Positions 6,101 through 57,201 of a stretch of 64,000 nucleotides of DNA are shown piece by piece (position 1 is the stretch's first letter; every line of letters begins with the position of its first letter). The DNA comes from Rhodanobacteraceae bacterium (lineage in GTDB: Bacteria > Acidobacteriota > Terriglobia > Terriglobales > Acidobacteriaceae): assembly GCA_903970285.1 (NCBI GenBank), contig CAJCHN010000141.1, positions 62,001 through 126,000 on the forward strand, given 5' to 3'. The notes below the pieces were generated by a model, which worked only from the letters and a program-made list of their open reading frames with translations, did not search any database and was not told where the DNA came from. The position numbers were made by a program, and so were the translations under genes.

Positions 6101-6412
6101 CTACTCGGAGACCGAGTCAACTGCAGCATGCGCAGCATTTCCCCCGGCGGCAGCCACGCGGCTCTCCCCGCGGCCTTCGCTTCGAGGCTCCAGGTGCACG
6201 CCCGCCCGTCCGCTCACCACCGTTGAGATCGCATGCTTGAAGATCAACTGCTCCTGGCTGTTGTTCTCCAGCAGCACCGAATACTTATCGAAGGAGCGAA
6301 TTTTACCCGTCAGCTTGACCCCGCTGACCAGGTAGATCGTAATCGGACTCTTGTCCTTCCGTACCGTGTTCAGAAAGGTGTCCTGAATGTTCTGTGCCGG
6401 CTTTGATTCCAT
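6101..6412 (-). CDS. hfq: RNA chaperone Hfq
   Basis: Hfq forms a hexameric Sm-like ring that anneals small RNAs to mRNAs. The first ~70 residues are canonical: Sm1 ([28 protein letters not shown]) and Sm2 with FKHAISTVV in place of the more common YKHA. The remaining ~33 residues form a flexible Gly/Arg/Ala/Ser tail. The ATG at 6412 is preceded by a good ribosome site (AGGAG about 8 bases upstream). The gene is first in the hfq-hflX pair and is divergent from the aminotransferase gene. Its presence suggests sRNA-based regulation operates in this organism. Confidence 0.97.
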
Positions 6413-12254: not shown

Positions 12255-12596
12255 GAGTCCTGGGGTTCATGATACGTCCAAGCGGAGGACGCAACAAAAT
12301 GGATGCGCAGATTGGCGTTCTGAAATCGGCACCGCCTGAGAGTGTGCCGGGCTGCACTGGAACGAGTAGAATTGGACTCATTACACAGCACGGCGCCCAC
12401 TCAAAGGCAACGCGGTGCGGGCGTGAAGGGTTGCAACATCCCCGTGGGTTGAGGATCGAGATTCTGGTCCGCCAGAGATCGACTCGGCGAATCCACTGCA
12501 ACCGCGATGGAAATGCTTTCAACATCCCCGTTTCCCAAGCGAAGTGCGCAGGCGGCATCGCGCACCACGAATTGGCGAGACTGAAGGCGGCGAAGT
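12255..12596 (+). other. Divergent intergenic region between tatB and nadA
   Basis: This 342-bp spacer must hold the promoters of tatB (minus) and nadA (plus). I see no convincing hexamer pair. The only repeat noted is a direct 12-mer CAACATCCCCGT at 12434-12445 and 12520-12531. A 111-codon open frame crosses it but has no recognisable domain or ribosome site and is not called. Confidence 0.4.
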
Positions 12597-54298: not shown

Positions 54299-55000
54299 TT
54301 AGTGGTTATCCCGCGAGATGACGAAGTACTTCGCGACTGTCCGCACGAAGGGACGTGCATCCGGAGGCGTCGGAATCCCGCCGCTCAGTACCTTCTGGAA
54401 GGAGACGTCCGACCCGTACTCAGTACGGGTATCGTCCTCGTTCTGAGACAACACGGTGCCATCGAGGTCGAGGCCGGCGAACAGGCCCTTCGAACGCGAA
54501 TACGTGAGGAACTCCGCGTTCAGCTTCCAATCGGTCCCCGCCGCTGCATTGCGGCCAACCGGGCCTGCAGACGCGGCCGCATCGGCACCAAGTTTGAACT
54601 TGTTTTGCAGCATATGCTGCAGTCCGTCATGGTTCATCGCGATGAGAACCAGATCCGTCGACTGGCCGCCAATCTGAAAGCCAAAACTCCCACCCGTCAA
54701 TTGCACGAACACCGGCGAACTCCAGCCCTTCGGCGTGCGGCATGTCGCGACACCCTGGCCATACTGACCGCCGACGATGAACGCAGCCTTCTTGTAGGCC
54801 GGTACCACCACCACGCAGGACGCGCCTGCGAGAATCGTTTGTGGGATGCCCTTATCCGGCGTTGCCATCACCTCGTCGATGACGGCGCGGGCGTCGCTCA
54901 AGCGCTCATCCAGCTTTGCCTTGTCGGCGGCGGCAAAAGACGACTGAAACGACCCCACGGTTAGAGCCACGGCGGTCAAGACGGTTGCGAAATGCTTCAT
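54299..55000 (-). CDS. SYLF-domain (YSC84-like) secreted protein
   Basis: The 233-residue product has a signal peptide (HFATVLTAVALTVGSFQSSFA) and a SYLF domain with IPQTILAGASCVVVVPAYKK, FIVGGQYGQGVATCR, GGSFGFQIGGQSTDLVLIAM and AEFLTYSRSKGLFAGLDLDG. Eukaryotic SYLF domains bind phosphoinositides; bacterial versions are envelope proteins of unknown role. The ATG at 55000 has GGAGG upstream. A TTGACA promoter with an inverted-repeat operator lies about 50 bp upstream, so a repressor or activator probably controls it. Confidence 0.85.
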   Translation of the reverse strand: MKHFATVLTAVALTVGSFQSSFAAADKAKLDERLSDARAVIDEVMATPDKGIPQTILAGASCVVVVPAYKKAAFIVGGQYGQGVATCRTPKGWSSPVFVQLTGGSFGFQIGGQSTDLVLIAMNHDGLQHMLQNKFKLGADAAASAGPVGRNAAAGTDWKLNAEFLTYSRSKGLFAGLDLDGTVLSQNEDDTRTEYGSDVSFQKVLSGGIPTPPDARPFVRTVAKYFVISRDNH

Positions 55001-55049
55001 CGGTAAATCCTCCAGTAAGGCGCCACAATCCGAATCCCGGGGCCCTCAC

Positions 55050-55076
55050 GTAACAGTCCATGAGATGGACTGTCAA
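55050..55076 (-). promoter_or_regulatory. Promoter with overlapping perfect inverted repeat (operator) for the SYLF gene
   Basis: On the minus strand TTGACA (55076-55071) overlaps ACAGTCCAT-N3-ATGGACTGT (plus coordinates 55053-55073), a perfect 9-bp inverted repeat. The -10 region is weak: TGTTAC (55055-55050) at a 15-bp spacing is the best match. A dimeric regulator binding here would cover the spacer. The start codon is 50 bp downstream. Confidence 0.6.
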
Positions 55077-55118
55077 CCCCTTAGGTTGCACCTGAGCCGC
55101 AATGCGGTTCCCCTGATC

Positions 55119-55220
55119 AAAAAAAACGGGACTGCAAACAGGCGCGAACTCGGTGCTCCTGGGAGAGCCTTGTCGCTCCCCAAAGATGCATCGGTCCGCT
55201 GTTGCAGTCCCTCTCCCAGG
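55119..55220 (-). ncRNA. Candidate structured small RNA with U8 end
   Basis: On the minus strand the segment ends in eight U (55126-55119). Stem A pairs GGGACTGCAACAG (55211-55199) with CTGTTTGCAGTCCC (55141-55128), with one bulge. Stem B pairs CCTGGGAGAG (55220-55211) with CTCTCCCAGG (55167-55158). The two stems interleave and cannot both form without a pseudoknot. Inside, GGGGAGC and GCTCTCCC add a small hairpin. The 5' end is unknown; a TATATC box near 55277 could start a ~140-nt transcript. It lies between the LuxR gene stop and the SYLF promoter. No known RNA family is recognised. Confidence 0.45.
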
Positions 55221-55341
55221 TATGTTGCTCTCTCACTCTCGCCCGCTTGCACCATCCACGCAACGGTACGGAGGGATATAGACCTGCGTGCTGTCCTCCC
55301 ATGAGGAAAAATGCGAGGAGGAGGTTTTCGTCAATTTATCG

Positions 55342-55980
55342 CTAGACCCACTTGGCTTCGATGGCATGCACGCCCAGCGCCGTGCGATTGTCCACTCCCG
55401 CCTTCCGCATCAGCCGGCCCAGATGCGCCTTCACAGTCGCCAGTTCCACCGCCAGCGCGTGCGCAATTTCGCGGTTTGAAAGCCCCTGGATCAGCATGTT
55501 CAACACCTCGATCTCGCGCTTTGTCAGATGAACCGGCGCCGCGCTGCGCGGTGCCTCGTTGGCCCGGTCCAGCAGACGCGAAAGCACCTTGCGCGGCGCC
55601 CACACCGAGCCATCGCTCACCACCGAGACCGCCATGCGCAGCTCCTCCTCCGTCGATTCGCTGCTCAGGACACCGCGGGCTCCGGCGCCGATCACCTGCT
55701 CGATGAACTCCAGCTGGTTATCGCCGCCCATCACCAGCAGCCGAATTCGCGGACGCAGCCGCCGAAAACTCGCCACCAGTTCCGGCAGGTGCGGCGTTGA
55801 GGCGGCGTCGATCAGCACCAGGTCCAGACCCGCGCTCTCGAGCGTCCCCGGCTCGGACAGCAGGACCACTTCCATCTTTCCGGAGTCGGCAAACAAGGCG
55901 CGTATTCCTGCAATGCGCAACTCGTCGGTCGTCACAATGCCCAGCCGAGGCAGGGTCTTCCCCTGTTCTGCCTCTCCCAT
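55342..55980 (-). CDS. Orphan LuxR/NarL-type response regulator with degenerate receiver
   Basis: The 212-residue protein has a receiver-like N-terminal domain (LGIVTTDELRIAGIRALFA) with an Asp in LVLIDAAS, and a C-terminal LuxR helix-turn-helix (LTKREIEVLNMLIQGLSNRE, ATVKAHLGRLMRKAGVDNR). The usual switch Thr/Ser and the conserved Lys of the receiver are replaced (LVMGG; GARGVLSS), so phosphorylation control is doubtful. No histidine kinase is adjacent. The ATG at 55980 is used; a TTG at 55998 would add six residues. Targets are unknown; the neighbouring RNA and SYLF promoter are candidates. Confidence 0.82.
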   Translation of the reverse strand: MGEAEQGKTLPRLGIVTTDELRIAGIRALFADSGKMEVVLLSEPGTLESAGLDLVLIDAASTPHLPELVASFRRLRPRIRLLVMGGDNQLEFIEQVIGAGARGVLSSESTEEELRMAVSVVSDGSVWAPRKVLSRLLDRANEAPRSAAPVHLTKREIEVLNMLIQGLSNREIAHALAVELATVKAHLGRLMRKAGVDNRTALGVHAIEAKWV

Positions 55981-56033
55981 GCTTCCCCCGCACTCCAAAG
56001 CCCAAGATGCTCAGACACTCCTAAAGAACCGCG

Positions 56034-57117: not shown

Positions 57118-57201
57118 TCGCTCTGGATCAACTTTTGGGGTCACGCGAGAACCTGCGCCAGCCTCCGCAAGACGTCGGACCGGAACTCTCCCAGGTCTCT
57201 T

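Follow-up and report, generated by a model that had tools for sequence, protein, structure and literature searches.

Qrr RNAs of Vibrio are multi-copy, trans-acting small RNAs (sRNAs) that combine a conserved single-stranded seed with an intrinsic terminator. In the GacA-RsmY/Z and UvrY-CsrB systems, a LuxR/NarL-type regulator controls an sRNA carrying GGA, and a dyad lies upstream of the promoter. Acidobacteria are among the commonest soil bacteria and, to our knowledge, no sRNA circuit is known for the Terriglobales lineage. A table in a 2022 review counts only four distinct annotated sRNAs in Acidobacteria (PMC9029176), and a table in an earlier study describes Acido-1 (RF01686) and Acido-Lenti-1 (RF01687) as acidobacterial candidate noncoding RNA motifs (PMC2864571). 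Neither of these two motifs matched positions 55000-55345 of the DNA analyzed here up to E = 10, nor any of 15 related loci up to E = 1.

Here, we describe an element on the minus strand of a 64,000-nucleotide (nt) stretch of acidobacterial DNA (the window). On balance, we read it as a free-standing regulatory sRNA gene of Terriglobales (Acidobacteriota) whose leader probably acts in trans by base pairing. From 5' to 3', its parts are a dyad, a -35 TTG, a 17-base spacer, a -10 NAnnnT, the leader, a terminator hairpin, and a T-run (Table 1). The predicted RNA starts at the G seven bases past the -10 box and ends in U8. The initial annotation had placed the element at 55119-55220, which takes in the hairpin and U8 but excludes the 5' end of the leader (55228) and the promoter (to ~55292). 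Its stem A with the U8 end proved real, as the predicted 3' end of a minus-strand small RNA gene spanning ~55228-55119. In this stem, GGGACTGCAA (55211-55202) pairs with TTGCAGTCCC (55137-55128), followed by one base and then U8.

Table 1. Positions of the predicted sRNA gene, its parts, and related features in the window.
Feature	Position	Strand	Description
Predicted small RNA	55119..55228	-	~110 nt here versus ~75-80 nt in relatives; conserved in 31/31 genus loci
Conserved single-stranded leader, proposed seed	55211..55228	-	GCAACAUACCUGGGAGAG; genus consensus GCAACACAGACCUGGGAGAG; invariant alignment columns
Terminator hairpin	55128..55211	-	Stem A arms 55202-55211 and 55128-55137; apical part longer than that of relatives
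U8 run of terminator	55119..55126	-	T-run of at least 5 at hairpin end in 31/31 genus loci
Stem B 3' arm	55158..55167	-	In genome-specific hairpin extension; not conserved; pairing probability 0
Predicted -10 box	55235..55240	-	GAGAGT here; relatives NAnnnT, mostly CAnnnT
Predicted -35 box	55258..55263	-	TTGCGT; 17 bases from -10
Dyad-symmetric site	55265..55292	-	Just upstream of -35; here GCAGGTCTATATCCCTCC; idealized GGTACGAAGG-n-CCTTCGTACC
LuxR/NarL-type regulator, degenerate receiver, candidate activator	55342..55998	-	Pfam GerE; no Response_reg match
SYLF/Ysc84 domain protein	54299..55000	-	PF04366; downstream of RNA
hfq (Sm-fold part)	6206..6388	-	Same window
Exact complement of leader	57186..57196	+	CTCTCCCAGGT, facing leader segment ACCUGGGAGAG; directly precedes predicted ATG (57202) of M50 peptidase

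The initial annotation had also proposed that stem A and a second stem, stem B, exclude each other, as in a switch or attenuator, or form a pseudoknot. Both stems are present letter for letter and in the strand order first described (B5'/A5'-B3'-A3'), with stem B an exact 10/10 complement between CCTGGGAGAG (55220-55211) and CTCTCCCAGG (55167-55158). The region as a whole is strongly folded: for positions 55100-55270 of the minus strand, the minimum free energy (MFE) was -72.7 kcal/mol versus a mean of -56.7 for shuffled sequences (z = -4.2; 0 of 200 shuffles as good). The plus strand of this stretch likewise outdid nearly all of its shuffles (z = -2.7; 2 of 200 as good), which is expected of a near-palindromic hairpin. 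The two stems contribute unequally. The 107-nt RNA had a free MFE of -52.7 kcal/mol, versus -31.5 kcal/mol when stem B was enforced by hard constraints, a cost of 21 kcal/mol, and all ten pairs of stem B had a probability of 0.0 in the ensemble. Among the 31 genus RNAs, only that of the window itself has a 10-nt complement to the leader (1 of 31), the others having at most 5 nt, and the RNAalifold consensus contains no second helix. The hairpin of the window is ~35 bases longer than those of its relatives, and the stem B arm sits in this extra part. Stem B is thus real as letters, not as structure. Since it is unique to one genome and energetically out of reach, the switch, attenuator, or pseudoknot reading is not supported, and we reject a riboswitch or attenuator built on stem B, as two conserved, mutually exclusive folds were not found. 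The other proposed form held up: stem A with U8 has, by its sequence, the form of an ordinary intrinsic terminator, which folding, the T-run, and covariation all support.

To follow the element among relatives, we examined 31 genus loci (L002-L032, with that of the window included), which are the regions upstream of the SYLF gene, reached via the SYLF protein. All 31 contain the element. When 61 genomes were searched at the DNA level with the window as query, two matched, the source itself and one relative; the hairpin diverges too fast. In the genus alignment (A2), the TTG of the predicted -35 box never varies, nor do positions two and six of the predicted -10 box (A71 and T75), and the two boxes lie 17 bases apart, the textbook spacing, in 31 of 31 genus loci and in 59 of 71 loci overall (L085 being counted through an alternative match, as its CATACT sits at 18). 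The 12 loci without this spacing are five extra copies, four with 18 bases (L095, L098, L099, and L113), and three with no match (L100, L103, and L108). These boxes suggest that the RNA has a promoter of its own.

The leader that follows is nearly fixed in sequence. It is 18-20 nt long and ends in CACAGACCUGGGAGAG in the 31 genus loci, where its consensus is GCAACACAGACCTGGGAGAG and its conservation 90%, versus 37% in the flanks; its core, CACAGA(A)CCTGGGAGA or a variant, is kept in other genera. The hairpin changes in sequence while its pairing is kept, through compensatory changes of the kind that the initial annotation had called for: of 12 consensus pairs, 9 have changed on both sides. Cells with double changes numbered 49, versus 14.3 in shuffled alignments, and 93.8% of hairpin cells were paired, versus 44-58% when slid. 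The count of further pair types was within chance (17 versus 15.8; 140 of 500 shuffles).

Immediately upstream of the -35 box, dyad symmetry peaks 15.5 bases before the TTG, where 8.2 of 14 positions are symmetric across the 31 genus loci and 5.6 of 14 across 32 distant loci. Most of the remaining centers score 2-5, the next best being 6.5 at -11.5 (genus) and 5.3 at -15.0 (distant), and in some species, the dyad is nearly perfect (GGTACGAAGG-n-CCTTCGTACC). A pattern combining the dyad with the -35 box gave 33 matches in 41 genus genomes (present in 28 of the 41). By coordinates, 28 matches are at this locus and 5 are elsewhere, versus 9 for the reversed control, and the site therefore looks dedicated to the RNA.

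The gene just upstream encodes the LuxR/NarL-type regulator. Of the genus loci, 30 of 31 have it at this position, as do 29 of 40 distant loci; the distant loci were hand-chosen from order-scan matches for genus spread and extra copies and are not a random sample. The regulator was not found upstream in 1 genus locus and 11 distant ones; of these 11, 5 represent extra copies and 2 are close to a contig end. Its link to the RNA may not be general. In an alignment of the protein of the window with those of 59 loci (one being the window's own), the DNA-binding half is conserved and the receiver eroded. Judged by eye, most genus members retain the phosphorylation Asp, LLGN or LLGS stands in that region in many distant orthologs, and the usual Lys is lost.

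Sequence comparison establishes the parts of the gene and their conservation, the covarying hairpin, and the existence of copies at unrelated sites with a common leader and a terminator at the end, whereas we infer transcription of the RNA, a link between regulator and operator, binding by Hfq, and base pairing with targets. In the mechanism that we propose, the dedicated promoter (-35 TTG, 17 bases, -10 NAnnnT) with its dyad operator would start the RNA at ~55228, and the operator would probably be bound by the LuxR-type regulator encoded just upstream. In this RNA, the terminator hairpin and U tail would come after a short, unpaired leader that hardly varies in sequence. The leader would then base pair in trans with mRNAs, and Hfq, bound to the terminator and the U tail, would probably assist. 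Hfq is encoded in 39 of 41 genomes and in 24 of 25 of the genus, and the initial annotation's second option, an sRNA in an Hfq-containing organism, stands, with an RNA ending in an intrinsic terminator and hfq in the same window. Hfq sRNAs typically carry a U-rich stretch, whereas the leader here is G/A-rich, which we count against this explanation.

A covariance model of the 31 sequences found the RNA in 163 of 298 genomes, in 42 of the 70 genera sampled from Terriglobales. Among the matches listed in this order scan, all genomes belong to the family of the window. For a scan of the phylum, we used a second model (R2), whose alignment has 72 rows; we chose to omit L098-L102 and seven genus loci that were near-duplicates, and an E-value cut removed L097 and L107. 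It matched 41 of 396 genomes, 37 in the family of the window; the other four are weak outliers (24.8-28.9 bits), which we treat as chance. An exact-pattern scan of the genomes of 84,980 species returned at least 119 stretches. R2 finds the RNA at 43 bits or more in 78 of the 80 pattern stretches listed, with 21 bits at L156 and no match at L115; the pattern is part of the model and some loci come from the same genomes, such that the two are not independent. Among the matches listed, carriers include Edaphobacter modestus, E. lichenicola, E. aggregans, Granulicella rosea, Terriglobus roseus, and T. albidus, as well as many Sulfotelmatobacter and Acidobacteriaceae metagenome-assembled genomes (MAGs). 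The T. roseus copy lies at L177 4782-4852 on the minus strand (NC_018014). T. roseus KBS 63 is strain DSM 18391. Rbosomal RNA-depleted RNA-seq with 75-nt reads exists for KBS 63 (PMC8407424), a type of library from which short RNAs may be lost. A strong copy (51.6 bits; L179, 7357-7434, minus strand) lies on a contig labeled as a Rhodanobacteraceae MAG, possibly through misbinning or transfer.

While the genus loci examined have one copy per genome, with second matches being the antisense of the same hairpin except in L026 (17.6 bits), some genomes carry more, namely, G109, with four copies, and G075 and G226, also with additional copies. CACAGACCTGGGAGAAGAGGG is common to all four copies in G109, and their stems and upstream sequences differ. 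Five extra copies (L076-L079 and L082) keep the leader and have shorter terminators, and at these, both the regulator and SYLF are absent. Their neighbors, including those of the three extra copies of G109, are unrelated, namely, M14 peptidase/HAD, a SpoIIE phosphatase, a PHO4 transporter, a gamma-glutamyltranspeptidase, and transaldolase/MacB. By these copies, the RNA is independent of a neighboring gene. If the leader is a trans-acting seed, it should stay constant while the hairpins and the genomic sites change, as seen here. By eye, L079 and L082 keep an upstream GGTCC...GGTAAC stretch resembling the dyad, and the same regulator may therefore reach both copies.

To look for targets, we searched 10 genomes for the complement of the leader (15 bases, up to 2 mismatches), which gave 94 matches, ten of them the RNA itself. 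The remaining 84 near-complements represent a mild excess over the 54 for the reversed pattern. A script scanned 80 of the 84 for nearby start codons and found no start-site position common across the genus; repeated cases occurred only between the near relatives G013 and G085 (e.g., at L252 and L311, where the site precedes an ATG by 23 bases) or fell within reading frames. In the window, an 11-nt exact complement precedes the M50 peptidase gene, 2 kb from the RNA gene, where by our own arithmetic ~0.03 such 11-mers are expected in the window. The site is absent at the two close homologs of the gene, in G019 and G003, and the peptidase is a possible target in this genome only.

The leader might instead bind a protein, making the RNA a sponge like CsrB/RsmY that a LuxR regulator resembling GacA would switch on. 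Nothing is more fixed than GGGAGA, which includes a GGA, and the adjoining LuxR-type regulator and the dyad before the promoter do recall GacA-RsmY. However, CsrA (PF02599) was found in 1 of 41 genomes, which belongs to a different family within the class, and in none of the 25 genus genomes, and the leader has a single GGA, which lies outside a hairpin loop. This rarity makes a CsrA sponge unlikely, and in its strict sense, we reject it. A protein partner other than CsrA may be involved, and we consider a sponge of any kind improbable but worth keeping in mind.

That the RNA is instead the leader of the downstream SYLF gene, with exclusive folds deciding between termination and read-through, we judge very unlikely. 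The RNA lies on the same strand as SYLF and upstream of it at 31 of the 40 distant loci (the 31 genus loci show this arrangement by design, having been fetched through SYLF), it ends in a terminator, and a stem B complement exists in the window. Against this stand the lack of stem B in the other genus loci, its zero probability, and the single helix of the consensus, together with a widely varying distance between the motif and the matched SYLF start, 183-405 nt in the genus and ~950 nt in L114. The RNA has its own conserved promoter and terminator by sequence, and five extra copies lie away from SYLF, which makes a role as the SYLF leader unlikely. At several genus loci (e.g., L006, L007, and L026), a recurring TACAACTCG-like stretch, seen by eye, lies between the terminator and the SYLF start and is perhaps part of SYLF's own promoter.

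Slightly less probable still is that the hairpin merely terminates the transcript of the upstream regulator. It does lie ~110 nt past the regulator stop on the same strand, but a promoter with invariant boxes lies between gene and hairpin, the leader is conserved far beyond a terminator's need, and copies exist without the regulator. We give almost no credence to the idea that the Shine-Dalgarno-like GGGAGA serves a tiny ORF or ribosome binding, as although many genus members have TTG-TAG, a frame of one codon, after GGGAGAG, neither a start codon nor an ORF is common to the 31 loci, 10 of which lack any complete ORF in the stretch scanned, and the stem varies by compensatory changes; a leader peptide is rejected on these grounds.

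We return to the reading of the element as a trans-acting sRNA gene. The initial annotation had matched it to no known family, and no Rfam 15 family matches it in the window or in 15 related loci; four matches lie elsewhere in those loci. Nor did titles and abstracts of the open-access papers listed by literature searches yield a recognizable description of it. We rate the element as a new RNA family of a known kind. Elsewhere in the window, two tandem nadA riboswitch matches occur on the plus strand (12429-12503 and 12515-12588; 54.9 and 46.8 bits, both above gathering).

6S RNA (RF00013) was considered as an identity for the element and rejected, as it gave no match there. Like 6S RNA, the element forms a long imperfect hairpin and occurs in the same genomes; 6S RNA itself lies on other contigs. 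The assembly, with a listed contamination of 5.43%, has two 6S RNA matches (G000:C12:35645-35831 and G000:C117:12134-12320), and each genus relative with a 6S match has one.

More tentatively, the element could be a core regulatory RNA of Terriglobales with paralogs, under a dedicated LuxR-type regulator that would no longer read phosphorylation through a normal receiver; regulator, RNA, and SYLF would then form an old, conserved, lineage-specific stress/envelope circuit. We hold this broader picture to be possible, with somewhat less than even confidence. Carriers include isolates (Terriglobus roseus, Edaphobacter, and Granulicella, among the matches listed), and with a defined leader, a promoter site, and a candidate regulator, RNA-based control in acidobacteria becomes directly testable.

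Set beside GacA-RsmY/Z and UvrY-CsrB, the locus shares a LuxR/NarL-type regulator, here beside the element, a GGA, and a dyad upstream of the promoter. It differs in that no CsrA occurs in the genus genomes tested, the leader has one GGA, and the gene of the regulator, whose receiver is degenerate, adjoins the RNA. Unlike Qrr, the element has one hairpin and, in the genus loci examined, one copy per genome; sequence comparison was confined to Rfam models, which gave no match. Like Qrr, it combines an unpaired conserved 5' segment with a variable terminator stem and what appears to be its own promoter with a regulator site, in an organism that has Hfq and with seed-sharing paralogs in some genomes.
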